33,465 nucleotides of DNA from contig JAGSHI010000030.1 in assembly GCA_023954635.1 (NCBI GenBank), positions 1 to 33,465 of the forward strand. The letters are read 5' to 3'. Numbering within the stretch: position 1 is the first letter of the stretch; every line of letters begins with the position of its first letter. The stretch is from Bacteriovoracaceae bacterium. Lineage in GTDB: Bacteria > Bdellovibrionota > Bacteriovoracia > Bacteriovoracales > Bacteriovoracaceae. Shown here piece after piece: positions 2,525-32,745 of this stretch. The position numbers and the translations under genes were made by a program. The notes beneath the pieces were generated by a model. That model ran no database searches. It was given only the letters and a program-made list of their open reading frames with translations, and was not told where the DNA came from.

Positions 2525-3630
2525 TACTTTGTCCGTTTGAATGTTCCATCTACCAATTCAAAATCATAACCAACATAATTATCATCGTGCTCTTCACAAC
2601 CTCTCCAAAAATGGGTCCTATTTCCGTTAGTGATCTCAGCAATACCACCGCCACAGGTAAATGATGGGTCCTGAGCTCCACTTTCAAAGTGAGAACAAAT
2701 AGATTTTGGATAGTTTTCATGGTCTTTCAATAAATCGTTAAGGGACTCATATGAATCTACTTTTGGTGATTTGTTTTGAAGACTATCAAAACGAAGATGA
2801 GTCGTAGAACTTAGGCTACTTGTATCTTCGTGAAGTTTAACTTTGGGACCGAGGCAGTGATTTGTATGAAATATCTCGCCGTCTTCGCCTTTATCTAGGG
2901 AGAGAACTGTCTCACGATCAGTTGGAGTGACTTCACAATGTCTTCCTCCCTCAGGTGAACTTAAAATATAATTGTGGCCACTGGTCACAGGAGCATTCAT
3001 TAAAGAATTCTCCATCCCTGAAAGAGTTTTTTCTAAAAGTAGTTGTCTCACGAGAACTGGCCAAATAACTCCGGCCTTAGCGTTTACGGTATTTATGTTG
3101 TTAACACCTACAAGGCAACGGTCAGTGTTGTAACCCATCATCCCAACACATCCGACTAGAGAGAAAACTAACGATTCAGTTTGATCATTTGTTTTTGGTG
3201 TTTTGATTAGACAGACATAATTTTTTGCGCTTTTGTGCATATCCCAAGTCTGACCAGAGACTATACTTTCACCTTTTTGAACGTGAATTGTTGAACAACC
3301 TTCTTCTGGGAGAGTAAGGTCTCGAAAGTCTGTGTAGTTATTTAAGATAACAATCTCAGCAATAGATAGATTAGAGGCCTTGGCAATCGCAACTAATTCC
3401 TCACAAATGAGGGGAGCAAATGTTCTGGTATTCTCAAGTTGTTCGTGTGCCATTTGATCGAGATGGTTTTTAATATCTGGATTTTTAGACAACATTAACT
3501 CTTTTCTAATGTCAGCAAGTTCTCTAATGGCATCGGCATAGGATTCGCCATGTTGTAGACCCCAAGAGATATAATTATCTTTCTTGTTACTTTCTTCATA
3601 TTCAATAAATGGGAAATTACATTGGATCAC
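2524..3630 (-). CDS. C45-family Ntn hydrolase / acyl-CoA:6-aminopenicillanic acid acyltransferase-like protein
   Basis: This 368-residue protein resembles the AAT/C45 family (isopenicillin N acyltransferase, beta-alanyl-dopamine synthase/hydrolase). Members are made as precursors and cut themselves before a cysteine that becomes the nucleophile. Here the EEGCST segment places Gly111-Cys112 at the expected site; fungal isopenicillin N acyltransferase is cut at Gly102-Cys103. The flanking ILNNYTDFR and SGQTWDMH segments are also typical of the family. The start is GTG within a GTGA overlap with the upstream fusion gene. The family makes or breaks amide bonds between an acyl group and an amino compound, which fits the CoA-transferase and aminotransferases beside it. 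No signal peptide is seen, so it is probably cytoplasmic. Direction of reaction is unknown. Confidence 0.8.
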   Translation of the reverse strand: MIQCNFPFIEYEESNKKDNYISWGLQHGESYADAIRELADIRKELMLSKNPDIKNHLDQMAHEQLENTRTFAPLICEELVAIAKASNLSIAEIVILNNYTDFRDLTLPEEGCSTIHVQKGESIVSGQTWDMHKSAKNYVCLIKTPKTNDQTESLVFSLVGCVGMMGYNTDRCLVGVNNINTVNAKAGVIWPVLVRQLLLEKTLSGMENSLMNAPVTSGHNYILSSPEGGRHCEVTPTDRETVLSLDKGEDGEIFHTNHCLGPKVKLHEDTSSLSSTTHLRFDSLQNKSPKVDSYESLNDLLKDHENYPKSICSHFESGAQDPSFTCGGGIAEITNGNRTHFWRGCEEHDDNYVGYDFELVDGTFKRTK

Positions 3631-6600
3631 AGCTCTATTCCTTTTTCTAAGTACATCTCAATATCGTTTAAATTTGGTGCAACCAAATATCTTCCGTCTT
3701 TATATTTAAAGTGTGTCGAAAGAGAGTTTGGAATTTTTCCTTTGAAGGAGCCACATCCATTTTTTATATCAATATCTTGAATTAAGTATTTCTTTAAATC
3801 TTTCTCGAGTTTCATTTCAAATTGATGATAATTATCAACAACTTTTTTAGAGTTTGAATGAGCACTCATCGCGGCAGTGTGAAACTTAGAAAGAGAAAAC
3901 TCATCCCCATCCCATGTACTAATCATCATGAGAGGTTTTTCTAAGAACTTCTCTTCTTTAACGAAAACCATTCCACTTTGTCCGCCCATATAAAGCATAA
4001 CGGCACTAGGTGAAATCTCATTTGATCCTGAAGCAAAGAATGTTGAGCTATCGAATCTATGAAATGATGAAATTGTTTCATTTAAAATTAAGTTTGATTC
4101 ATACTTGTCGCAAAGAGAATTCAGAGCATGGATAAACTCTTTAGGAACTCTTTTAAAAGATTTCTGAAGAATTGGCTCCAGCCATACTCCTAAAATTTCA
4201 CCTGTTTTTAATTCACTCTCAAGCTTTTCGATTATATCTTTCCAGTTTTTCTCTGTGGGATGATCATAATGATGAACAGGGAAGAAAGTGTCTTTTTCAT
4301 CAGAGAGTGAGCGAGAGAGAAATGAGCCTGTCCCAAAATGATGACCTCTAAAAGAAATCATTTTAAACCCTGCTTTTTTCTTATCATTAAACCATAGAGT
4401 TTTAGCAATCTTATCAACACATTCAGATTGGCCACTTGTCGTAAAACCATGTCTCAATGTTTTTGGCATTAAGCTAAAAATATCTTTAACTTGTTTTAAG
4501 AATCTATGACTCACAAAGTTTGATAAACAAACTTTATTATTTAAATAAGGTAGCTCAGCTTTAATCATAGAGTCAGTTAAGCCAGTTTGTCCTAGAGGAC
4601 TGGTCAGTGCTGAACACATATCAAGACTTTCTTTTTTCCATTGAAGGGGAGAGGTGTAATAGAAAACATCTCTATACTTTTCAAAGTCTGGATAATCTTC
4701 TTCTAAATAGTTTTGCTCATATGCACCCATACTTAGGTTGATAAAAAGCATTCCAGCGGCTAAACGATCTCTGTTCCTACCATGAACTCTTTCTTTACCT
4801 TCAGAAGTTGCGATAATTTGAAGAGCGTACTTCAAAAATCGGCCTTGACCTCTTCCTTGGAGCTCTGGGGATATGGTTGTATCGATCATATAAAGAACAT
4901 CTTCATTCTCAAAAGAAGGATCTTGCCTTACTCCACGCTCAAGTGGGTTTGCCTTAAGTGGACCAGAGAAGGCCATACCTAAAAGCTCATCTTTTCTAAC
5001 GAGGCCTAAGCAAACGCTTCCTTGATGTTCAGCATTCTTTTTAAATGTCTCAAGAGTTGTTTGTCTTGTTGGCTCATAGACACATTTTTGGAGTTCCATT
5101 ATTTTGTCACCAAACTGATCAAAGTTCGAACGATCAATTCGGACTAAATCGCAATCATACTTTTCACTAAAGATTTCTTTTAATTGGTTCCATTCCTTAC
5201 TCGTATTGTCTGTTCCTTTAAGGTGATGAAATTTAGTGAGCAACATATGTTCTGACCACTGATAAACTTCTTGAGAGAGGTGAGGAGAAGCCTTAAATGT
5301 TGTCGGTAATGGTGATTCAACTTTGTTAAAAACTTTATTTGAAATACTATGGAGTTGATCGAATAAAAAACTTAAATCATTATTTTTAAAACCAAGGTTT
5401 AGTCGAAAACGAAGTGTTCTCTCTCCAGCTGGGTAAAAAAGAAGTCCATAGTTAAACCTTTCCGCTATAAAGGAAGCGACATCTTCTTTGCTTTTAAAAT
5501 CAAAAGAAAACGCAAGCCCATTAGACCTTGGACTTTCTATGAATTCATCAAACGTAGTCACAAGAGATTTTAATTTCTCTGTTGCCTGTTTTTCCATCTC
5601 AATTATTTTCCCTTGGCTTTGATCAAGAGAAACAGCATGGAGATAACCTCTAATTGCACTTGAAACATTAAATTCCATCTCGCCTTGAGGTTTAGAATGT
5701 GAAATGACCATACCTACTTGTGCCTTCTTTGCACAGACTACGTAATCTGGCTCAAGAGGAGTATCATTTACTCCTTTCATTTTTAGCTGTTTGTGCCAAA
5801 AGAATTCACGTCCTAAATGAAAACCTGTTTGTACTTCATCATGTATAACTGGAATTTCAAAACTTCTGGCCATGAGAATAAGTGCACTATGAAACCTGCT
5901 TGTTAGATAACGGTCTCCACCTTCACATTGCATTGGCTCAATTATGACGGCGAATAGGCTATTGGTAAGTAGCTTTTTTCTCACATCGAGAAGACAATTA
6001 ATTTCTTCTTGAAGAAGCTCGTCTTGCTTGTCCCAGTTTGTAGGGACTTTAAACTCCGAAAGAGTTGCTTCGTCCCAGACTTTTGCCCAGTCAGAAGGAG
6101 CTTCGAGGTTTATTTGTCCTTGTGTATCACTTGGGGCCTTACAGTATTCAGTTTCAAACCCTTTCCACTCAAAAGGTTCTCTCTTAGAAGGGTTCCATGT
6201 AGAGGCCAATGTAATTAACATTCGACCATGAAAAGAACCTTCGAAGGCCAACACTTTCTTTGCAGAGGAATGTACTCTTCGCTTAAAGCATTCTCCAAGG
6301 GCAATTTCATTGGCTTCCGCTCCACTATGACAATAGGTCAAATGGATGTTTTCCCAATTGAGTTTTCTTTTCATAAACTTTCGAAAGGCAGTATGGATTC
6401 TAGTAAACTCTGGTCCATTTGGATTATTTGTCCATGACTCTAGAAAATGTGAAGCACCATGGAAAACACTCGAATTAAACCCTAGACCTAGTGTTGCAAT
6501 CTGACTGGCAGCATCCATGAAATGATGAGGAGTTCCGTCGTGACCTTCAACTCCAAGCCAAGCTCCTTGTGAGCTTTTCAAGTCTGTTAAATACGTCTTT

Positions 6601-6695
6601 TTCTCGGCCGGAATCATTTGGTTTTCATAAAACCCTGCTAAAACTTTTTTAGCATGTTCCACATCTTGATTATCGATTAGCTTTATATCGGACAT
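3627..6695 (-). CDS. Tripartite fusion: LAT-like class III aminotransferase, GNAT acetyltransferase, degenerate second aminotransferase
   Basis: This 1022-residue protein has three parts. Residues 1 to about 460 form a class III aminotransferase. It has the HSGAEANE motif, FHGR, Asp286 in HDEVQTGF, and a double lysine (Lys323 most likely catalytic) in CAKKAQVG, which recalls L-lysine epsilon-aminotransferase (GKKTQV). Residues of about 515-690 form a GNAT domain whose acetyl-CoA loop is QGRGQG at 613-618. Residues of about 715-1022 resemble another class III aminotransferase (FTTSGQSE, SFRGHHFG). In that third part the aspartate is Asn872 and the lysine position, aligned without gaps to the neighbouring 394-residue enzyme, is Tyr902, so it should not do PLP chemistry. 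It overlaps both neighbours (1 and 4 bases). A role in epsilon- or omega-amino group transfer followed by N-acetylation is inference. Confidence 0.85.
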   Translation of the reverse strand: MSDIKLIDNQDVEHAKKVLAGFYENQMIPAEKKTYLTDLKSSQGAWLGVEGHDGTPHHFMDAASQIATLGLGFNSSVFHGASHFLESWTNNPNGPEFTRIHTAFRKFMKRKLNWENIHLTYCHSGAEANEIALGECFKRRVHSSAKKVLAFEGSFHGRMLITLASTWNPSKREPFEWKGFETEYCKAPSDTQGQINLEAPSDWAKVWDEATLSEFKVPTNWDKQDELLQEEINCLLDVRKKLLTNSLFAVIIEPMQCEGGDRYLTSRFHSALILMARSFEIPVIHDEVQTGFHLGREFFWHKQLKMKGVNDTPLEPDYVVCAKKAQVGMVISHSKPQGEMEFNVSSAIRGYLHAVSLDQSQGKIIEMEKQATEKLKSLVTTFDEFIESPRSNGLAFSFDFKSKEDVASFIAERFNYGLLFYPAGERTLRFRLNLGFKNNDLSFLFDQLHSISNKVFNKVESPLPTTFKASPHLSQEVYQWSEHMLLTKFHHLKGTDNTSKEWNQLKEIFSEKYDCDLVRIDRSNFDQFGDKIMELQKCVYEPTRQTTLETFKKNAEHQGSVCLGLVRKDELLGMAFSGPLKANPLERGVRQDPSFENEDVLYMIDTTISPELQGRGQGRFLKYALQIIATSEGKERVHGRNRDRLAAGMLFINLSMGAYEQNYLEEDYPDFEKYRDVFYYTSPLQWKKESLDMCSALTSPLGQTGLTDSMIKAELPYLNNKVCLSNFVSHRFLKQVKDIFSLMPKTLRHGFTTSGQSECVDKIAKTLWFNDKKKAGFKMISFRGHHFGTGSFLSRSLSDEKDTFFPVHHYDHPTEKNWKDIIEKLESELKTGEILGVWLEPILQKSFKRVPKEFIHALNSLCDKYESNLILNETISSFHRFDSSTFFASGSNEISPSAVMLYMGGQSGMVFVKEEKFLEKPLMMISTWDGDEFSLSKFHTAAMSAHSNSKKVVDNYHQFEMKLEKDLKKYLIQDIDIKNGCGSFKGKIPNSLSTHFKYKDGRYLVAPNLNDIEMYLEKGIEL

Positions 6696-7693
6696 TATGA
6701 CCTCACATTATTTTTAATAATTGATTCTAAAAACTCTGAAAAAGAAACCCCTCCCGATTCCATCATCTTTGGAAACATCGAGATAGGTGTCATTCCTGGA
6801 AATGTATTTATTTCATTTAGATAAATTTCTTTATTTTCACTTAGAAAAAAATCAACTCTTGATAGATGACTTAATTTAAAAAGTGAAAAGGCCTTGATTG
6901 AAATAGCTTGAATCTCCTCTAACAACTCAGAGGATAATCCTTCAGCCTTCATAACTGTGTCAGTATGACTTTTATCAGAGTACTTTTCTTCATAACTATA
7001 AAAATCATTTTCAGGACAAAGTATTTCTCCCGGGTGACTCGTTACAACTTTTCCATTGTGTTCGAAAACTGATACTTCAAGCTCTCTGCCTTTGATACTT
7101 TTTTCAATTAAGACATATGGTGAGAGTTTTAAGGCCTTGGTGACTGCTTCTTTTAACTCGGCTTCATTAACAACTTTGAAGCAACCTATAGAAGAGCCCT
7201 GTGAACTTGCCTTAACAAAAACTTCTTTTTCTTTGTCCAAAAACTCACTAGCCTTTGAGATTTCTTCTAAATCTTTAATAAAACAAAAAGGAGTGTTTGG
7301 AATACAGGCGGCATCTAGCCACAACTTAGTACTCACTTTATTGAAACAAAGCATACTGGCCTCGGGGCCAGATCCTAGGTAAGGAAGCTTCATCATTTCA
7401 AAAACTGATTGGATTTCTCCTGTTTCTCCTGGAGGCCCATGAAAACATGGGATGGCAAAGTGAAGTGTTATGAGTTCCTCAGTCTGATGATTATATAAAA
7501 AACCACCTTTTCGAAGTTCTACCTGTTCACCTTTATCATTAACTCGAGAGCCATCTTTCGAAATCTCTACATAATAGGGCCGGATTGAGGAGATTTTGTT
7601 TAGACTTTCCTGTATAAAGGCCGCAGATGTAAGGCTGATTTCGTGCTCTGTGCCACCGCCTCCGCAGATAAGTAGAATATTTTTTGAGTCCAT
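6695..7693 (-). CDS. ddl: D-alanine--D-alanine ligase homologue (ATP-grasp)
   Basis: This 332-residue protein has the full Ddl layout. GGGGTEHEISL is near the N-terminus, followed by HGPPGETG, the ATP-binding ASSQGSSIG loop, the omega-loop DFYSYEEKY, and the metal-binding C-terminal segments RVDFF and NEINTFPGMTP. Ddl enzymes join two D-alanines for peptidoglycan, in the cytoplasm, using ATP. All recognisable catalytic segments are kept, so it may be a true Ddl. However, it is not in a murein gene cluster: it is the first gene of an operon of aminotransferases and acyl-transfer enzymes. A ligase for another amino acid pair, as in D-cycloserine-type pathways, is possible. The ATG has a GGGA ribosome binding site. 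The operon promoter must lie in the 271-base gap upstream. Confidence 0.85.
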   Translation of the reverse strand: MDSKNILLICGGGGTEHEISLTSAAFIQESLNKISSIRPYYVEISKDGSRVNDKGEQVELRKGGFLYNHQTEELITLHFAIPCFHGPPGETGEIQSVFEMMKLPYLGSGPEASMLCFNKVSTKLWLDAACIPNTPFCFIKDLEEISKASEFLDKEKEVFVKASSQGSSIGCFKVVNEAELKEAVTKALKLSPYVLIEKSIKGRELEVSVFEHNGKVVTSHPGEILCPENDFYSYEEKYSDKSHTDTVMKAEGLSSELLEEIQAISIKAFSLFKLSHLSRVDFFLSENKEIYLNEINTFPGMTPISMFPKMMESGGVSFSEFLESIIKNNVRS

Positions 7694-17575: not shown

Positions 17576-20500
17576 TTAGATTGATTGAATGTTTGTAGGA
17601 AGAATTTCAAGTAGCAACTTATACTCTTCTACCTTTTTGTCTGTAAGCACATCTCCAAGAAAGTTAGATAAAACTCCCATTGAGATATCGTAAAGTTTCT
17701 TTTCATCTTCAGTCGCTTCTACTGGTGGTACTTTTGTAGCAGCTTCTTTAAGAGCGATTACTTGATCATACTTAGCTTGACCCATCATATAGACTAGGAA
17801 GGCCTTTTTTCCCATCTCAGCGTCGCCACCAAGAGCTTGTGTAAAGAACTCTTCTGTGAACTGAGGATCATTAGCAGGTAAACCTAGTATCTGACCAGCA
17901 AGACCATCTGGAATACTCCAAGCAGCTTGTTGCTCTTCAGAAAGATCACTTGGCATAGGCGGATTAATTCTCCACTTAAGAACCTTAAGAACAGTTTCTT
18001 TTCCAAGTTTCTTTAAAAACTCTAAGCTATCCATTCCTTCAAGCATAGTGAATGCAAGTAGGTTATCTTCAGTTGCACCGTAAAGAACATCATCAATCAT
18101 AGTTGACACTATCCCTTCGCCTTCAAATGGATTGTCTCTGTCTTTCTTTCTTACTGTAAAAGTATTCACAAGCTTTCTGGCTTCTTTTTTCATATCAACA
18201 TGATCAGTAAGACCTTGTCTTGCTGCCATTGAAAGAAGAACTTTGTTCAGGTGATCAGTTCCACTTAGGGAAAGACCTAAATAGTTGTACATCCACTGTG
18301 GACCTGACATATCAAGGATCTTGTAATCAAGATCTATAGAGTATGCCTCTTCGTATTGCTGTCCATCTTCTTTCTTAAATTTAACTCCATTTTGAAGTGG
18401 AACCCCTGAACCAATATGTCCAAGTACTGCAAAGATCTCAGGAGCAAGTTCAGTGTGATCAATATAAGATCTATTGATACTGTCACTTGTTGGTCTACCT
18501 GAATCTCTTTGGAAAAGAGATTTCATCGCCATAACTCTATCGATCCAAGTACCGATCACATATCTGTCTGAACTGTAGATATGTTCATCATCGTTATCTT
18601 TAAAACCGTTAAGAAATTTACCAGCTTCACCTTTTACAACCATTTCATCTTCAAGAACTTTGTCCTTGATCGCTTTATCGAAACAAGTGTGTGGTACATA
18701 CTTGATATCAAATTTTACATCGTTATAAAGTGAGGCAAGTGGCTTAAGCTCAACTGTTTTCATATCAGGATCATCTTTCTTAGCAAGAGCACAAAGGTGA
18801 TCAGGAGTCTTCAAGACTTCAAGAAAGAAATTACCTGCGATCTTAACAGCATCTCTTCTGTCATTGATCATCTTACAAACTGGAAACTGAGCTGTTTGCT
18901 GAGGTGAACAACCACTAATTAGTATGTCATCGCTAAAGATAGAAGCGAAGAATTCCCAATCTTCGAAAACGTCTCTAATAGCATTAAACTCTCTGTATCT
19001 TGCGAATAAGTAACCACTGTACTTATAAACATCAAAGTCGTTTCTTCCATCTCTGAAGTTTCTGTACTTATAAAGATCTTTGTATCTTTGGATCTTGTGC
19101 TCAATAATTTCAACAAGGCTAGAACCTTCGTCAAAACGGTTACACGAAGTTGAAAGTCCTGCATTTCCATCTGTACAGAAGCTATAGTCTTTCTTAGCTA
19201 GGCTTTCTGACTCTAATTGTGGGTACAAAGCTCTCAATGTTGTTGGAACATCTACAAGCTTAGTTTCAATAACATTTCCAGCTTCATCTTTTTTAACAGC
19301 TTCAATTTTTCTAGCGTATGCAAATCTAAGAGCAGCGATATCGTATTTACCAAATACTGTAAGTTCGTTCATTGTTGAGATCGCATAATCCATAACTGAA
19401 CTGTAAGTAGGAAGGTTTTCGATCCCTGCACCTGTTCTCGTATTAAGAGAGTCAATTTCTTCTTTACTGTAGAAATTGTCCTTATCGAATGAACCAATAA
19501 AGTTGTGTCTAAGACCAAGGTTGTGTCCAAACTCGTGAACAAGAGTTGAAGTATAAGAAAAAGGAACGATAATATCGATCGCAGCTTTTTGTTGTGCTTC
19601 TGTTAACTCATCCCAGCCTTTTAAGATCTTTTTGTTTTCGTCCTTAAAGAACTCTGGGTTGTCTTGAATTCCAGGAAGAAGAGTCTTAACTCTACCTGCA
19701 ATTTGAAGAAACTCTTCATGGTATGCATTGTTTGTTGCATACATATGAAGTTCCTTTTCTTTTTCAACCATTTGTTTTTCGAACTCATCCATATGACGAG
19801 TTTCGATTTGAGAAGGGTTTAAACTTCTTTTAAGTCTTTCTTTTAGTTGTCTCTTAACAGAGAGAGAGTTTTCTCTAACTAGCTCAAGGCTATTTTCATC
19901 AAGTCTTCTCTTGTTTTGAACAAACTTCTTAAAGTTCTTAAATTGTTCTTTTACCTTTGGAGACTCATGCTGAAGCTTTCTAAGCTCAGAAACACTTAAC
20001 GTTTTCTCTTCTTTCTTAAGAGATTTCTCATCTTCTGTTTCAGCTTCGGCCTTCTTAGCAGCGTTAGTTGTAAGATCAACCATTGATTGCCATACGTATC
20101 TTGAAGTTGAAGTAAGTACTCCACCATACATATTAACGTGGCCTTGAACGATCTCACCTGTGTACGGGTTTGTTACTGTAGGAGCATAACCTAAAAGTCC
20201 ATTTGCTAGAGGATCGTCGATAAGAACAAGCATGTTGTTTCTTAAATCACCAACTTTCTTACCTCTTGCTTGGTAATCGAATTCAATTCTAATCCCAGCG
20301 TCAGCTTGATCAAGAGCATCGTTCATTACTTTTGCAGCATTTTTTGTTGCTTCAAGAATTTTAGCGTTGCTTGCCTTAAAGTATGAATCACTTAAGTAAT
20401 ACTTGATCTTTCTTGGAGCATCATCATTATCTGCTGGACTCCATCTTGAAAGAAGGTACTTCTTCTCTTTTCTTTGTGTATCATTATCGATACCAAGCGC

Positions 20501-22291
20501 CATTGTGAAATCTTTAAAGAAACCAAACTCACTATGGTCATGAATAGGGTAGTCAACAGCTTTGTAGTTTTCTGTTGCAAGATCATCAAGCTTCACAAGA
20601 GAGTAATAGAAAGATGTCTCAAATGCAGTGTTTTTGAAATCTGAGAAACCTTCTGGGTCTTTTGCATAGTGCTCATAAAGACATGAACTCCAGTTTGGAA
20701 CTGTCGTATACTTTCTCTTTAGTTCAACATTGATAACACCCTTTTCAACTTCGTAAGAAACTAATTCTGCACGTCCTTTAATAAGACATGGAGAATCGAG
20801 TGTGGCGATATCTAAAAGGTTAGTTTGTTCAATCTTCAAACCTTCAAAGTTAGGAATAAAGAATCTTCTCTTACTCCAAGTCAGGTCAGTGTTTTCTTCA
20901 TCTCCTGAAGTACACTCACCATTGTCATCAGTTCTACATCTGTAATCTTTGTGGCTACCAGGTATCTTTAAAACTGGACTTGTATTAAGTGGATTATCAT
21001 TCCATCTATCTTCATTATCTAGCTCTTTTACTTCAAGTCCGTCTTCGGCCCACTGAAGCTTAACAACTCTTTCGTTACCTTGATAAAAAGGAGCAGCAAT
21101 AACAACGTCTCTAGGAGTTCCCATAGTCATTGGAACATAAAGATATTTACCTTCAAGTTCAACTTGGTCTTCTTTACTGATGATAATTTTATCAGTGAAG
21201 TTAATGTCTTGCCCGATCGCATCTTTTTTAAGAGCTGATTCTAGATTGATCTTCACGAACTTACTTTTTGTGTGATGGATGTCATCATCTAAAGTAACAG
21301 TCGCAATTGGATGATTATCATTAGTGTTAAGCTTCAATTTGATATGTGTAGCTGAAGCACTAAATACTGGCTTTAGAATACAATCTTTAAGCTCAATTCC
21401 TGCTCTTTTTGCGATTGTCTTTCCACACTTCTCAATTCTAGGATCATTTTTAGTTAGCGCACCTTTTTCTAGAATATTAAGATTCTTTTTATTAATTGGC
21501 TTTTGAACATAAATTTTGTCACGAACTACTTTCAATTTTAGAGGAGAGTTATCATCACTAATTTGTGGAGTCATTCCAAGAACAGTATTGTTTTTGAAAA
21601 GTGACTTCAGTCCTTTTAGAGTAACAACTTTCTTATTAAGAGCAGTTTTTCTAAAGACTGCTTTTTTCTCGTCGTAATCACCTTCTCTAAGCCCTGCAAG
21701 AGTTCTATTTTCGATGATTGGATCAATTCTTACGTGAGTAGAACCGGCCTTACTTCTACTTCTAAAAACAACAGTTCTTGTTTCTTCACCAAGGTCGTTT
21801 TCAGCTCTTTCAAGTATTCCGTATGTAGAGATATTGTACTGGAAAATAGGAGTTTTATTTCCAACTGTAATTGAGCGACTATGCTCTGATTGTTCTGTTT
21901 GAGCTTCAACGAAAGCAACAAGATAGTCTGAAGTTAAGTTAAAGCTAACTTTGAACTTTTCTCCTGCTTTAGCAGATTCGATTGATAAGTCTTTTAGGAA
22001 AGGTTTTAGTCTTTCATCACCACTAACCATTTCAATGCTCTTATATTGCTTTTCATTTAAAGCATAAAAGCTTGAAACTTCAGCATCGGCTTGAACGGCC
22101 TGGATTGAGTTGTTCCCAACTGCCTGAACGACAACGCTAGACTTAAAAAGAGTTGTTGGGTGTACATTTTTTTCTATATCCTCAGAAACTTTCTCAGGAA
22201 GTTCCTTAGCACAACTGACTACGAGTAAACTCATCAGTACAAGTTTGGCAAGCTTTGAACTTGCGAATAGATTTTCCATTTTCTTGGCCAT
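17576..22291 (-). CDS. Very large lipoprotein zinc metalloprotease (metzincin-like, EcxA/DUF4953 type)
   Basis: This 1571-residue exported protein has a lipoprotein signal (LLVVSC near residue 27), so it is probably anchored to the outer membrane. The zinc motif HEFGHNLGLRH has His919, Glu920, His923 and His929. About 38 residues later SVMDY (Met967) forms a Met-turn, so it belongs to the metzincin-type proteases, closest in pattern to bacterial EcxA-like/DUF5117-DUF4953 proteins. A charged, helix-rich stretch at about 735-855, rich in Lys and Glu, lies directly before the catalytic motif and looks like a coiled-coil insertion. AGGAG lies seven bases before the ATG. Codon use differs from neighbours in having few GGCC. 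A role in digesting extracellular or prey protein is inference. Confidence 0.85.
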   Translation of the reverse strand: MAKKMENLFASSKLAKLVLMSLLVVSCAKELPEKVSEDIEKNVHPTTLFKSSVVVQAVGNNSIQAVQADAEVSSFYALNEKQYKSIEMVSGDERLKPFLKDLSIESAKAGEKFKVSFNLTSDYLVAFVEAQTEQSEHSRSITVGNKTPIFQYNISTYGILERAENDLGEETRTVVFRSRSKAGSTHVRIDPIIENRTLAGLREGDYDEKKAVFRKTALNKKVVTLKGLKSLFKNNTVLGMTPQISDDNSPLKLKVVRDKIYVQKPINKKNLNILEKGALTKNDPRIEKCGKTIAKRAGIELKDCILKPVFSASATHIKLKLNTNDNHPIATVTLDDDIHHTKSKFVKINLESALKKDAIGQDINFTDKIIISKEDQVELEGKYLYVPMTMGTPRDVVIAAPFYQGNERVVKLQWAEDGLEVKELDNEDRWNDNPLNTSPVLKIPGSHKDYRCRTDDNGECTSGDEENTDLTWSKRRFFIPNFEGLKIEQTNLLDIATLDSPCLIKGRAELVSYEVEKGVINVELKRKYTTVPNWSSCLYEHYAKDPEGFSDFKNTAFETSFYYSLVKLDDLATENYKAVDYPIHDHSEFGFFKDFTMALGIDNDTQRKEKKYLLSRWSPADNDDAPRKIKYYLSDSYFKASNAKILEATKNAAKVMNDALDQADAGIRIEFDYQARGKKVGDLRNNMLVLIDDPLANGLLGYAPTVTNPYTGEIVQGHVNMYGGVLTSTSRYVWQSMVDLTTNAAKKAEAETEDEKSLKKEEKTLSVSELRKLQHESPKVKEQFKNFKKFVQNKRRLDENSLELVRENSLSVKRQLKERLKRSLNPSQIETRHMDEFEKQMVEKEKELHMYATNNAYHEEFLQIAGRVKTLLPGIQDNPEFFKDENKKILKGWDELTEAQQKAAIDIIVPFSYTSTLVHEFGHNLGLRHNFIGSFDKDNFYSKEEIDSLNTRTGAGIENLPTYSSVMDYAISTMNELTVFGKYDIAALRFAYARKIEAVKKDEAGNVIETKLVDVPTTLRALYPQLESESLAKKDYSFCTDGNAGLSTSCNRFDEGSSLVEIIEHKIQRYKDLYKYRNFRDGRNDFDVYKYSGYLFARYREFNAIRDVFEDWEFFASIFSDDILISGCSPQQTAQFPVCKMINDRRDAVKIAGNFFLEVLKTPDHLCALAKKDDPDMKTVELKPLASLYNDVKFDIKYVPHTCFDKAIKDKVLEDEMVVKGEAGKFLNGFKDNDDEHIYSSDRYVIGTWIDRVMAMKSLFQRDSGRPTSDSINRSYIDHTELAPEIFAVLGHIGSGVPLQNGVKFKKEDGQQYEEAYSIDLDYKILDMSGPQWMYNYLGLSLSGTDHLNKVLLSMAARQGLTDHVDMKKEARKLVNTFTVRKKDRDNPFEGEGIVSTMIDDVLYGATEDNLLAFTMLEGMDSLEFLKKLGKETVLKVLKWRINPPMPSDLSEEQQAAWSIPDGLAGQILGLPANDPQFTEEFFTQALGGDAEMGKKAFLVYMMGQAKYDQVIALKEAATKVPPVEATEDEKKLYDISMGVLSNFLGDVLTDKKVEEYKLLLEILPTNIQSI

Positions 22292-22351: not shown

Positions 22352-23170
22352 TTAAAATGTGTAACCTAATGAGAAAAACATTGCTGCACTTCTCTCATCA
22401 AAAATATCTATATCTGTATTTGATCCATTGGCCGCAAGTGGAGAACCTCCATTTGCATATCCTAGTGACAATGATGTTTGAGCTGTTGGTGAGTAACCGG
22501 CAGTAGCAGCAAATCCAAATGAATCTCTCTCTCCACCTTCATAAGTCACTCTTCTATTGTATGAGCCAGTAACATTCATACTAACTTGGTCTGAAAAACC
22601 ATAGTTAACTGAAAGAGCGTTACCTAAACTGTATTGCGTGTTTGATCCACCAGTTAAGGCCGTGGTGTACTCATGAAAATAAAGAGCAGCATTTGGAACA
22701 TAAGAGATACTCATGGAATTGATTCCAAAGTTTTTTCCAAATATTGTAAAAGATGGACTGGCCTTAAAACCTGTAATCATCTTTTGATACTTTTTTGAAT
22801 ACTCTGAAGTTGGAATATAACCAATTAAAGTTCCACCAACTCTACCAGCTTCACTTTGGCCAAGAGTTGTACTCAATCCAACAGCAGAGTTACTCCAGTT
22901 CCACTTTCTTTCACCTTGTAGGTTCTTATTTCCACTAACTGAAGTGAACATTCTCACTCCATTCTTAAACTTATAACTATGTGAAACACCAAGGTCAGAT
23001 GAAATTGATTTCTCGGCATCATCTAAATGATGCATGGATGTGTTTAAAGTGGCCGAAGTTGATAATGACCAATTTTTAGACTTTTTGACACTACTAGTAC
23101 TATCACTGGCCAGAGTGGTACCAATTGAAAGTGTAAATAGAAGACCTAATGCCTTGATTTTTCTTTGCAT
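22352..23170 (-). CDS. Probable outer-membrane beta-barrel protein
   Basis: I do not recognise a named family. The ATG at 23170 gives a clean signal peptide (MQRKIKALGLLFTLSIGTTLAS) with AAGGA upstream; the longer ORF to 23245 would put 25 residues before it and is rejected. The mature part (about 250 residues) is rich in alternating Ser/Thr/Tyr/Gly strands, and the protein ends in FSLGYTF, the terminal aromatic pattern of outer-membrane barrels recognised by the BAM machinery. It lies 60 bases upstream of the large lipoprotein protease on the same strand, with no obvious terminator between, so the two may be co-expressed. Confidence 0.7.
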   Translation of the reverse strand: MQRKIKALGLLFTLSIGTTLASDSTSSVKKSKNWSLSTSATLNTSMHHLDDAEKSISSDLGVSHSYKFKNGVRMFTSVSGNKNLQGERKWNWSNSAVGLSTTLGQSEAGRVGGTLIGYIPTSEYSKKYQKMITGFKASPSFTIFGKNFGINSMSISYVPNAALYFHEYTTALTGGSNTQYSLGNALSVNYGFSDQVSMNVTGSYNRRVTYEGGERDSFGFAATAGYSPTAQTSLSLGYANGGSPLAANGSNTDIDIFDERSAAMFFSLGYTF

Positions 23171-23239
23171 TACCAATATTCCTTCGTGGTGTTTTGGGGT
23201 TTGTTCCCCATATCTGCAACTTAAGTGCCATAGTTTTGG

Positions 23240-23252
23240 TGTCATAATGACA
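23240..23252. promoter_or_regulatory. Perfect 13-base inverted repeat upstream of the barrel gene
   Basis: TGTCAT and ATGACA flank a single A at 23240-23252, about 70 bases upstream of the barrel protein's ATG. It looks like a dimeric repressor or activator site. TATACT (minus strand, near 23266-23271) lies about 15-20 bases upstream in the direction of transcription, so the palindrome would overlap the transcription start region. No regulator can be named. Confidence 0.3.
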
Positions 23253-23378: not shown

Positions 23379-24062
23379 TTATTCAGGAGAATTTAATAGG
23401 TCAGATGAAAGAAGATTTTCTAGTCCTACACGATTCTCATCCCAGATATCTTTTAAAGAGATATCATCTGTAAGTACTGGAAATTCCATAGTCAGGACGG
23501 GACTCTTATATTTTTCAGGTGCATACTCACCTAATGAACCAGGTGTAGGATGACCTTCAATTTCTGGGACTATGGGGTAAGAATTGTGCCTTTCTAAAAG
23601 CTCAGCAATTTTTTGGCAATCACCATTTGTGTTAAGCATCGGTTTCCAAGAATGCATGGTGATGATCACACTTGGGGCAAATTTAGAAAAGAGCTTATCT
23701 AGGAATTTATTTTCGGGTTCAGACAATGCACTTGGGCCAGGGTTGTATTTGGTATCTCGGGCCTCACTAGTCCAAGATGCAGCCGGTAAGTTTCGATTGA
23801 GGTCAACTCCGTGTGAGTTCACTCGAGTTCCCGAGCGGTAGCCATCCACATTAAGAACGGGGATGACTATTAAAGGAACTTCAATATCATCTTCGGCCTT
23901 AAGCCACTCGAAAAGTTTTGAAAGGACGAAGACTCCTTCGACCTCGTCCCCATGGACTCCCGCTATGAGGTAAGCATACTTAGAAGCTTTGAGATCACTT
24001 CGATAAGCCTTGATCTCATCACCTTCAACAGAATGTCCCGATTTCAAGTCGATAAAATTCAA
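23379..24062 (-). CDS. M14-family zinc carboxypeptidase, MpaA-like murein peptide amidase
   Basis: This 227-residue single-domain M14 peptidase has zinc ligands visible as His37 and Glu40 (GVHGDEVEG) and His138 (TMHSW). The substrate segment VDLNRNLP (Asn90-Arg91) and the catalytic Glu194 (TMEFP) are also present. The compact size and the SHGVDLNRNLPA pattern are close to MpaA, which cuts the gamma-D-Glu-diaminopimelate bond of murein peptides. No signal peptide is present, so like MpaA it is probably cytoplasmic and would recycle peptidoglycan fragments, which a predator would have in excess. Its start overlaps the pterin-synthase-like gene by four bases. A succinylglutamate-desuccinylase-like activity is the alternative. 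Confidence 0.8.
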   Translation of the reverse strand: MNFIDLKSGHSVEGDEIKAYRSDLKASKYAYLIAGVHGDEVEGVFVLSKLFEWLKAEDDIEVPLIVIPVLNVDGYRSGTRVNSHGVDLNRNLPAASWTSEARDTKYNPGPSALSEPENKFLDKLFSKFAPSVIITMHSWKPMLNTNGDCQKIAELLERHNSYPIVPEIEGHPTPGSLGEYAPEKYKSPVLTMEFPVLTDDISLKDIWDENRVGLENLLSSDLLNSPE

Positions 24063-24553
24063 AGAGTATCTCCCTTGAATAAATGAACTGCGGACTGACC
24101 CGGAGTTTCTTCTACTTCAATTTCCAGACTTGAAAACTGGAAATCGAATCGTTTCTTAACTATTGATTTTATTTCATGGCCTATGAAGATTGCAAGCCTC
24201 TCGGCACTGGTGTTTTGAATAGGGAGAATCAATACGTCTTGTTTAGGGAAACTAAAAGTTGATCCATCTGGGGTTTTTAAATTGATATTGGTGTCTGTTA
24301 ACTGGGTTTCAAGCTTTAGGTTTTCACCCGGAATAAGGACTTTATGGTCGAGTGAGTCGCAAACTTCTCTAACGATGGGTTTTATATCGAGAAAGTCGAA
24401 AACCATATCAGCAGTCAGTTTTGGGCTATCGCCTTTGACTTTGACTCGGTAGTTATGGCCATGCAGGGGTTCACGTGACCCATCTTCAAAAATCAGAAAG
24501 TGTGAACAGGCGAAGTTAAAATATTCCTTGTACACCTTAATGCTAAATTCCAT
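24059..24553 (-). CDS. 6-pyruvoyl-tetrahydropterin synthase homologue, PTPS-III-like
   Basis: This 164-residue member of the QueD/PTPS (COG0720) family acts on dihydroneopterin triphosphate. Zinc ligands are His18 (CSHF) and His31 and His33 (HGHNY). The usual QueD/PTPS motif CxxxHGH is replaced: Arg is at the cysteine position and the sequence reads E-P-L-HGH (Glu28), i.e. ExxHGH. In the literature on this family, that signature marks PTPS-III, which makes 6-hydroxymethyl-dihydropterin for folate and can replace FolB. So folate rather than queuosine is the more likely pathway. The C-terminal EVEETPGQSA segment is also typical. It overlaps the M14 peptidase gene by four bases. Confidence 0.82.
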   Translation of the reverse strand: MEFSIKVYKEYFNFACSHFLIFEDGSREPLHGHNYRVKVKGDSPKLTADMVFDFLDIKPIVREVCDSLDHKVLIPGENLKLETQLTDTNINLKTPDGSTFSFPKQDVLILPIQNTSAERLAIFIGHEIKSIVKKRFDFQFSSLEIEVEETPGQSAVHLFKGDTL

Positions 24554-24727
24554 TAAATTTATACCTCGTGTGTTTTCCTAGGTTGGCGTTTTAACACTTT
24601 ATGAACTTGGAGCAAAGAAAAGTATTACTCTTTCGCGTTGCGTATAAAGCTTTATGGTGTTCATTTAAAATACGGTAAGTTAGAATTTAAACTTCCTTTT
24701 CAGTCTTATAAAATTAAGGTGTTAAAG

Positions 24728-25972
24728 ATGAGTAAAGAACAGGTCAATCAGTTGGACCCTGCTGTTGAAAAAGAAGTTCAAAAGCAACTGGAATATTTAA
24801 AATTTGGTGTAACTGAGATTACCCCTGAAGATGAGTTTGTGAAAATGCTTAGGCATTCTATTTCTACAGACACTCCTCTTCGAATTAAGTGTGGCATTGA
24901 TCCGACAGGAGCTGATGTTCACTTAGGTCACCTAGTTCCTTACCGTAAGATGCGACAGTTTCAAGATTTAGGTCATGTTGGAGTCGTCATTATTGGAGAC
25001 TACACTGCTTCTATTGGTGATCCCTCTGGGAAAAATGAATCGAGGCCAGCTCTTGATCCCGATACTATTAAACTTAATGCCAGAAAGTACATGGACCAAG
25101 TTTACACAGTAGTAGATCCTGATAAAACTGAAGTTTGTCATCAAACAGAATGGTTTGAAGATGTCACATTGAGAGATGTTCTTTCTTGGGCGGGTCAAAC
25201 GACGGCCGCAAAGCTTTTAGGTCATGAAACTTTTAGAGATAGACTCGAAAAAGGTTTCCCTCTCGGACTTCATGAACTTTTCTACCCTGTATTACAAGGG
25301 ATTGATTCCGTTTTTATCAAGGCCGATGTTGAACTTGGTGGATCAGATCAACGTTTTAATGTTTTGATGGGAAGAGACTACCAAAAAAACTCGGGGTTAA
25401 GACCTCAGGTGGCGATGTTGCTTCCAATTATTACTGGAACATGTGGAACTCAGAAAATGAGTAAGTCGCTAAATAATTACATAGGTATTTTAGATGAGCC
25501 TTTCGACAAGTTTGGAAAGGTTATGAGTATTCCCGATAATCTAATGATTGAGTGGTACCAGTACTTAACAGATATCGGCGAAAAAGATTTTCAAACTTTA
25601 AAAACTGGAATTGAAGATGGAAGCCATCATCCAAATGAAGCTAAAAAAGAATTAGCTTCTCGGATTGTTAGTTTCTTCCATGGTGATCAGTCCGGTAAAG
25701 AAATGCGTGAGCAATTTGAAAATGTATTTAAGAAAAAAGAAATCCCTGACGATATTCCAGAGTTTGAATTAAGTGAACCTTCGCAATTGATATCTATTTT
25801 AGTTGACGCTGGTCTTCTTGGTAGTAAGGGTGAAGGGCGAAGACTTGTAAAACAAAAAGCTGTCGGAGTTGTCGATGGTGACAAGTTTTCTGATCCCGAA
25901 GTTAAACTTGATGACTCTCATAAGGGAAAAGTTATCAAAGTTGGTAAAAGGAAGTTTTTAAAAATCATATGA
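24728..25972 (+). CDS. tyrS: Tyrosyl-tRNA synthetase
   Basis: This class I aminoacyl-tRNA synthetase is 414 residues from the ATG at 24728, which has AAGGTG upstream; the longer reading from a TTG at 24638 adds 30 residues of no visible homology. The HIGH motif appears as HLGH (GADVHLGHLVPY) and the KMSKS motif as QKMSKSLNNYIG. The C-terminal S4 RNA-binding domain is visible (LLGSKGEGRRLVKQKAVGV). The arrangement fits the TyrZ-like bacterial group. Its stop overlaps rnhA by four bases. Confidence 0.95.
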   Translation: MSKEQVNQLDPAVEKEVQKQLEYLKFGVTEITPEDEFVKMLRHSISTDTPLRIKCGIDPTGADVHLGHLVPYRKMRQFQDLGHVGVVIIGDYTASIGDPSGKNESRPALDPDTIKLNARKYMDQVYTVVDPDKTEVCHQTEWFEDVTLRDVLSWAGQTTAAKLLGHETFRDRLEKGFPLGLHELFYPVLQGIDSVFIKADVELGGSDQRFNVLMGRDYQKNSGLRPQVAMLLPIITGTCGTQKMSKSLNNYIGILDEPFDKFGKVMSIPDNLMIEWYQYLTDIGEKDFQTLKTGIEDGSHHPNEAKKELASRIVSFFHGDQSGKEMREQFENVFKKKEIPDDIPEFELSEPSQLISILVDAGLLGSKGEGRRLVKQKAVGVVDGDKFSDPEVKLDDSHKGKVIKVGKRKFLKII

Positions 25973-31317: not shown

Positions 31318-32745
31318 ATGTTTGATGAAGAGCAAAGTGACTATTATAAAATAATAGAGAAAGAGCTACTTTCTTGCTTTCACTCTAAAGAAGTACAATT
31401 ACCTGTTCATGTAGAATCTGAATTTCATAAATATTTAAGTTGTGGGTTGCTTTCAAAAGGATTTTTGAGAGTTGTCTGTCATCATTGCAAAAATGAAAAA
31501 CTTGTACCATTTTCCTGTAAGTCGAGGACAATTTGTCCAAGGTGTGCGGGGAGGCGAATGAATGATGGAGCTTCTCACTTGCTTGATCATGTCATTCCAG
31601 ATGTTCCTATTCGGCAGTGGGTGATTTCATTTCCATTCCTGTTGAGATATTTGTTGGCCTATCGTCCTAAGTTGCAAAATACGGTGATGTCTATTTGGAT
31701 TCGATTAATAAGTTCATTTTATAAAAAGAAAGCAAAGAGTTGGAGAGTTCAGGGTTCTGATTGTGGTTCTGTAACAGTTATTCAACGTTTTGGTGGTAGT
31801 TTAAATTTGAATGTCCATTTTCATTCCTTGTTTGCGGATGGAGTTTTCCATAACAATAATTTTATGAGAATTCCTGTCTCACATGAAGAAGTTGAGAGTT
31901 TAAATAAAAAGTTAAAAGTAAGAGTGTTGAGGGCCTTGAAGAGGCAAGGTTTTGATTTAAGTTATATGGAAGAGTCTGATGTTGAAACGAATGAGTTTGA
32001 AAGTGACTTTCCTGATATGGCGAATTTTCTAAGTGAGAGTGTTACTGATGGAAAAATAAATGGAAGTCGAGCTGAAAAAGTAGGTCAACTTTTTAATCCT
32101 CCTTTTCAACCATTTGTAGGAAAGAGGTGTTCGTATGTTGATGGTTTTTCGATGCATGCTAATGTCTATATTTCAAAATATAATAAAAAAGGTCTTGAAC
32201 ACTTGTGTCGCTATATTCTTAGACCTGCAATAAGCAAAGAACGTATAACGAGACTTGGAAACGATTATGTCCTGCTGAAATTAAAAACACCTTATTCAGA
32301 TGGAACGACTCATTTAAAATTTACAACAGAACAATTTATGAGAAGGTTAGTTGCCCTTATCCCTCCAAAAATGGCAAATTTGACTAGGTATCATGGAGTT
32401 TTTGGTGCCAGAAAAAAAGAGCGAAGTAAGTTTGTTAAAAGAAACAAGACTAAGAAGAAAACAAGAGAGGGGACTCTTAGAAAAGAATATCGTATGGAGT
32501 GGGCGAAGCTACTGAGAAGAGTTTTCAAAATTGATGTGCTGAAATGTAATGGTTGTGGCGAGCAGATGCAAATCTTGTGTGAGGTTGTGAAGCAAGAGGC
32601 CATTATTAAAATCTTGAATCATTTAAAGTTTGAGCCTTACTATCCAGACCTTGAACCTGCAAGGGGACCTCCTGTTCAAGGAGACTTCTTCAATGAGTCA
32701 GGTGATGACTTTAATCAAGAGTATGTAGAACAATGTGACTTCTAA
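31318..32745 (+). mobile_element. IS91-family-like HUH transposase gene
   Basis: This 475-residue transposase has an N-terminal zinc-binding domain with cysteines at 54, 57, 67, 73 and 76 (CHHC, CPRC). The HUH nickase motif NVHFHS (His167, His169) and a tyrosine in RYILRP (Tyr299) follow. The C-terminal zinc ribbon begins with KCNGCGEQM. This is the order in IS91/IS801/ISCR-type elements, which move by rolling-circle replication and have no terminal inverted repeats. Only one clear catalytic tyrosine is visible at the expected place, as in ISCR-type Y1 enzymes. The reading frame is intact. A TGA in frame just upstream fixes the ATG as first start; the ribosome binding site is weak. The element's ends were not located. 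Confidence 0.85.

Follow-up and report, generated by a model that had tools for sequence, protein, structure and literature searches.

The window that we analysed is the whole stretch of 33,465 nucleotides at positions 1 to 33,465 of contig JAGSHI010000030.1 of a Bacteriovoracaceae bacterium (assembly GCA_023954635.1; genome G000 in our survey), and the locus considered here consists of a PTPS-type gene, an overlapping zinc carboxypeptidase gene and a divergently transcribed tRNA synthetase gene (Table 1). Elsewhere the window encodes an IS91/ISCR-like transposase with Y2_Tnp and zinc-binding domains (31318-32745, plus strand), a 1022-residue protein with an N-terminal class III aminotransferase domain (3627-6695, minus strand) that is adjoined by a D-Ala-D-Ala-ligase-type ATP-grasp gene (6695-7693), and a 1571-residue protein with a Met-zincin (DUF4953) stretch (17576-22291, minus strand), beside which a 297-residue protein (22352-23245) gave no family match.

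Table 1. Genes and key codons of the PTPS locus (positions are those of the window)
Feature	Positions	Strand	Basis or remark
PTPS-III-type gene, 164 aa, ATG start	24059..24553	minus	proposed enzyme for DHNTP to 6-hydroxymethyl-7,8-dihydropterin
R27-E28-P-L-H31-G-H33 codons (ExxHGH, two zinc histidines; E28 at 24470-24472)	24455..24475	minus	sequence and Plasmodium alignment
H18 codon, third zinc histidine	24500..24502	minus	alignment; invariant in 96/96 relatives and P. vivax
D69-H70 codons, catalytic Asp-His pair	24344..24349	minus	alignment; His also in Plasmodium, replaced by Glu in the majority of ExxHGH relatives that lie outside the family
E149 codon, invariant Glu	24107..24109	minus	96/96 relatives
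M14/AstE-like zinc carboxypeptidase (MpaA-like), downstream	23379..24062	minus	TTG start overlaps the PTPS stop (TTGA)
Tyrosyl-tRNA synthetase, divergent neighbour	24638..25972	plus	no functional link seen

An earlier note on this DNA had claimed that the cysteine of QueD is replaced in the PTPS-type protein and that Glu28-Pro-Leu-His31-Gly-His33 fits the ExxHGH motif, and both points were borne out by our reading of the open reading frame and by the PTPS profile. Residues 23-33 run E-D-G-S-R27-E28-P-L-H31-G-H33, with Arg27 at the position of the QueD cysteine; the CxxxHGH motif of QueD (PTPS-I) is absent from the protein, Arg replacing Cys, as is the CxxxxxHGH motif given for PTPS-II in excerpts of PMC5041015. 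The match to the Pfam PTPS profile (PF01242) was well above its cut-off of 22.4 (76.6 bits, E-value 2e-21), and ExxHGH showed no variation, either across the 96 query-like proteins of full length that were read from 153 genomes of the phylum or across the 31 rows of alignment A2. The equally invariant E149 we take to be the pterin-binding Glu. The PTPS profile, the phmmer matches described below and this conservation rule out that the motif arose by chance in a random frame, and it is confirmed that the frame encodes a PTPS-fold protein with a real ExxHGH motif.

When all PDB sequences were searched with phmmer, the best matches were to Plasmodium PTPS (2a0s, from P. vivax, and 1y13, E-values 1.3e-22 and 1.2e-21), the next protein having an E-value of only 1.2e-4. 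An AlphaFold2 model of the window protein, built from 31 aligned sequences, had a mean pLDDT of 91, and searches with this predicted model gave the same ranking: by Foldseek 1y13 and 2a0s had E-values of 6e-18 and 1e-17 (next protein 2e-6), and by VIA-align the Plasmodium chains aligned over 158-159 residues with Z-scores of 22.6-22.8 and an rmsd of 1.8-1.9 (next chain Z 14.3). H18, E28, H31, H33, D69, H70 and E149 are identical in the P. vivax and window proteins. The closest solved family is thus Plasmodium PTPS-III by sequence and predicted fold, with QueD much more distant, and all the sequence and fold features that we examined mark the window protein as a putative Plasmodium-type PTPS-III. 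According to excerpts of PMC2229834, the P. falciparum enzyme converts DHNTP mainly to 6-hydroxymethyl-dihydropterin, with 6-pyruvoyl-tetrahydropterin formed alongside, and its E38C variant loses the hydroxymethyl product and keeps the pyruvoyl product. ExxHGH is described as the PTPS-III motif in the portions of PMC5041015 available to us, which together with portions of PMC3223725 report that the folate role of PTPS-III was verified in several bacteria. PTPS-III itself is therefore already known and the window protein adds a member; in the open-licence papers that we searched we found no treatment of PTPS in Bdellovibrionota.

The genome that encodes the window protein (3.70 Mb, 219 contigs, 98% complete) gave no match to folB (PF02152) in a search that matched 10 of 14 control genomes. 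It contains folK, above the NCBIfam cut-off, and a folP-type gene for a divergent Pterin_bind protein (151 bits, under the NCBIfam cut-off of 162.6) that lies immediately after ftsH and a gene resembling tilS (the latter named by eye), ftsH followed by folP being also the order in E. coli. A search for GTP cyclohydrolase IA gave no match, so that the genome would need FolE2 (GTP cyclohydrolase IB). No aromatic-amino-acid hydroxylase was found there, and a single bacterial sepiapterin-reductase homologue used as query gave no match at E 1e-30. The genome thus has the gene content expected with PTPS-III, folB missing and folK and folP present. Both queC and queF were found, together with a second PTPS whose CRFIHGY sequence bears the QueD cysteine; a queuosine pathway needing the window gene alongside a normal folB, which the earlier note had named as evidence against its folate reading, was looked for in this genome and not found.

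The note had also predicted that automatic annotation would call the gene queD, and the NCBIfam QueD equivalog was indeed the top model for the window protein, although at 62.6 bits it fell below its cut-off of 89.25. We nevertheless consider it highly improbable that the protein is QueD and supplies 6-carboxy-tetrahydropterin for queuosine. Two genomes (G074 and G109) do combine queC, queF and a window-type gene with a single PTPS match; against this, the catalytic Cys is missing at the QueD position, another PTPS with Cys is encoded in the same genome, and the nine genomes of the window's family that lack the window-type gene all keep queC and queF, with a Cys-bearing PTPS in each of the eight that were read (all but G150).

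The best-supported reading is that the window gene fills the FolB step in its own genome, which we regard as probable because this genome lacks folB and the hydroxylase and has folK, a divergent folP, queC, queF and a Cys-bearing second PTPS. A zinc ion on H18, H31 and H33, ligands deduced from relatives, would hold the 7,8-dihydroneopterin triphosphate side chain in place, and Glu28, standing in for the QueD/PTPS cysteine, would with D69-H70 cleave the chain to give 6-hydroxymethyl-7,8-dihydropterin. FolK and then FolP would turn this product into folate, with FolB bypassed. By analogy with the Plasmodium enzyme, the window enzyme may release some 6-pyruvoyl-tetrahydropterin as well. Doubts about the bypass come from repeated losses of the gene in relatives, the GTP cyclohydrolase IA that was not found, the absence of folate-gene clustering, and the occurrence of the motif in 53 genomes in which HPPK was not detected.

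The named relatives of the window protein comprised 34 loci (53-71% identity in the best segment), mostly from Bacteriovoracaceae, Bacteriovorax and Halobacteriovoraceae, the remaining records being titled Oligoflexia, Proteobacteria or Bdellovibrio sp.; we infer that family f1 of our survey is the family of these relatives. No folate-gene clustering around the window-type gene was found in the f1 relatives read. What does recur is the M14 gene, which overlaps or abuts the PTPS gene in 33 of the 34 named family-type loci, and which is found beside PTPS genes in f1 and also in f10 and f20, two further families of the phylum. This pairing could mean that the two proteins act together in a process on pterins or glutamyl conjugates that is separate from de novo folate and queuosine synthesis. 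We know of no reaction that links a PTPS and an M14 carboxypeptidase, the M14 protein resembles murein amidases of the MpaA kind with a score below cut-off, and a screen of the loci of 46 named relatives from outside the family, made with a few query proteins and by eye for recurrent neighbours, turned up no M14 gene; we judge such a joint process unlikely.

Among the 41 f1 genomes, 32 have the window-type gene, none has folB, 39 have HPPK and 40 have a DHPS-type match. We had expected from the proposed role, which is not a published criterion, that the gene would be retained wherever folK and folP are kept and folB is missing, and this expectation failed: eight of the 41 genomes (G008, G038, G042, G046, G054, G062, G124 and G142), 92-100% complete with G142 and G124 only 92%, keep HPPK and DHPS and are missing both folB and the window-type gene. 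One further genome (G150) is without HPPK, DHPS, folB and the window-type gene, a joint absence that speaks for the bypass. On an FtsH+FolP tree covering 40 of the 41 genomes (G150, having no folP locus, was left out) the gene underwent at least six state changes, with approximately six independent losses. Since it was lost repeatedly where folK and folP were kept and folB is absent, the window-type gene is not indispensable in f1. These losses bear on its role in the family and not on the window protein's own features: either the eight lineages draw on another source for 6-hydroxymethyl-dihydropterin, or they obtain it by salvage, or the gene has always been one source among others. In the second PTPS no difference was seen between f1 genomes with and without the window-type gene among the 22 read (20 with CxxxHGY, two with CxxxHGH). 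The note's claim that the signature points to a FolB-independent folate route is supported for the window protein, with Plasmodium closest and folB absent beside folK and folP, and is weakened by these eight relatives for the family as a whole.

As a general rule the same claim failed. Over 153 genomes of the phylum we found PTPS matches in 151, folB in 19, HPPK in 72 (including two weak matches, G019 and G069), QueC-family matches in 153, QueF-family matches in 148, DHPS-type proteins in 74 (rather than 96, matches in frames of ~1200 residues having been dropped as methionine synthase) and an aromatic hydroxylase in 103. Of 108 genomes with a match to the window protein, 96 were counted as having a full-length relative, the other 12 showing only short weak matches. 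Among the 96 genomes, 43 had HPPK and 53 gave no detectable match to it, and 10 had folB. Presence of HPPK did not differ between genomes with and without an ExxHGH relative (43/96 vs 29/57, p 0.5), whereas the hydroxylase was clearly commoner in genomes with one (79/96 vs 24/57, p 8e-7, kinship ignored). That ExxHGH generally means folate was accordingly rejected over the 96 full-length relatives; ExxHGH alone is not diagnostic of a folate role, and the published one-line motif is insufficient to predict it, more than half of the ExxHGH proteins read in the phylum coming from genomes in which HPPK was not detected.

The residue that follows the catalytic Asp divides the 96 relatives into 31 D-H proteins, 63 D-E or D-D proteins and two others. 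Thirty of the D-H proteins come from f1 and one from G059; every D-E or D-D protein lies outside f1, and the two with other residues (G115 and G118) belong to it. The catalytic His is replaced by Glu or Asp in the relatives from 52 of the 53 genomes in which HPPK was not detected, most of which have an aromatic hydroxylase, and genomes with HPPK and without folB account for 30 of 31 D-H proteins as against one of 63 D-E/D-D proteins. His versus Glu after the catalytic Asp thus separates the two genomic settings almost completely. The match is strong as a description and weak as independent replication because almost all D-H proteins come from a single family, and outside f1 one genome (G059) agrees with the pattern and another (G047) disagrees.

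A quick tree of 113 rows, in which relatives outside the family were reduced to one row per genus (31 of 64) and 49 of 80 named loci were included, placed the D-H proteins other than that of G059 on one branch with Plasmodium (SH-aLRT 96), which also holds G115 and G118. The D-E proteins of other families of the phylum formed a branch (SH-aLRT 99) with G059 inside it, and those of planctomycetes and deltaproteobacteria formed another (SH-aLRT 85); the 46 named loci outside the family divided into 19 D-H and 27 D-E. In 12 of the 53 genomes in which HPPK went undetected (members of f11, f14 and f19) a divergently transcribed SDR gene lies within ~100 bases of the ExxHGH gene, these being all the matches under E 1e-50 in a phylum search with one such SDR, and for the two SDRs that we checked sepiapterin reductase 2bd0 was clearly the best solved match (249 vs 115 bits and 178 vs 77 bits). 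A FolE-type gene adjoins the ExxHGH gene in two f10 genomes (one confirmed by NCBIfam), and the D-H gene of G059 has an SDR and a 596-residue hydroxylase close by. From this genomic context, the D-E group points to synthesis of a tetrahydropterin cofactor rather than folate.

Other proteins seen during the survey include a second, degenerate PTPS-like protein of ~130-150 residues, with an HFH/HPH-type motif and neither Cys nor Glu at the catalytic position, that is encoded directly beside ExxHGH genes at 17 loci in f3, f8 and f11 (e.g., L096:2838-3281, minus strand) and is perhaps a non-catalytic partner. They also include an aromatic-hydroxylase-like protein of ~600 residues matched by Biopterin_H in two pieces (L109:2375-4165, minus strand), a kind widespread in the phylum.

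The cofactor context raises the possibility that the window enzyme, too, chiefly supplies a tetrahydropterin cofactor (6-pyruvoyl-tetrahydropterin) for aromatic-amino-acid hydroxylases, folate being secondary or absent. The Plasmodium enzyme makes both products (excerpts of PMC2229834), and D-E relatives elsewhere in the phylum adjoin the sepiapterin-reductase homologue. Within f1 the hydroxylase occurs only in genomes with the window-type gene (18/32 vs 0/9; p 0.0025 by genome, p 0.017 by genus) and adjoins a pterin-4a-carbinolamine dehydratase gene in five of the 13 hydroxylase loci read. The association was not significant once relatedness was counted by independent pairs on the FtsH+FolP tree (at most two informative pairs); moreover, the window's own genome and a gene-bearing genus-mate (G106) have neither the hydroxylase nor a reductase match at E 1e-30, and the D-H pair, which the reductase-linked copies lack, is retained in the window protein. 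On balance we think a chiefly cofactor-supplying role rather unlikely for the window protein and retain the FolB bypass as the preferred reading.

The ExxHGH motif is shared by two or more groups whose genomic settings differ, and this is a more interesting outcome than the window gene itself. Tentatively, and with somewhat less than even confidence in the whole combination, we suggest that the motif marks two enzymes, a D-H clade making the folate precursor (the window gene and Plasmodium) and a D-E clade, widespread among other Bdellovibrionota, Planctomycetota and Deltaproteobacteria and with Glu in place of both Cys and His, supplying tetrahydropterin cofactor for aromatic hydroxylases, and that several Bacteriovoracaceae make folate from a further source of 6-hydroxymethyl-dihydropterin that is neither FolB nor PTPS-III. 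With the FolB bypass, a folate enzyme of the malaria type would occur among the predatory-type Bacteriovoracaceae, and annotating it as a queuosine gene would mislead. A second folate-precursor source in relatives becomes a concrete question.

Compared with known systems, the window protein is most like the PTPS of P. falciparum and P. vivax (1y13, 2a0s), with which it shares the whole-chain predicted fold, the Arg before the Glu of ExxHGH, the D-H pair, the zinc histidines, a long middle insertion and a clade in the quick tree; it differs in that identity is ~31% and the gene is bacterial and overlaps an M14 gene. With the bacterial PTPS-III of COG0720, as described in excerpts of PMC5041015, it shares ExxHGH and the presence of folK and folP with folB missing, but the window gene was not seen clustered with folate genes and its close relatives lost the gene yet kept folK and folP. 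QueD (PTPS-I) and the CxxxHGY proteins, the latter termed 'PTPS-II-like' in the part of PMC5445326 available to us, have the same superfamily fold and zinc motif; the window protein instead has Arg at the Cys position, Glu one place later and a longer insert, and its genome encodes a separate CxxxHGY protein besides it. The D-E ExxHGH proteins of other Bdellovibrionota-type families, Planctomycetota and Deltaproteobacteria belong with the window protein to one wider family, having ExxHGH and the long insert in common, and are set apart by the change of the catalytic His to Glu, by genomes that in the surveyed phylum mostly lack HPPK, and in some cases by sepiapterin-reductase-like or FolE neighbours.
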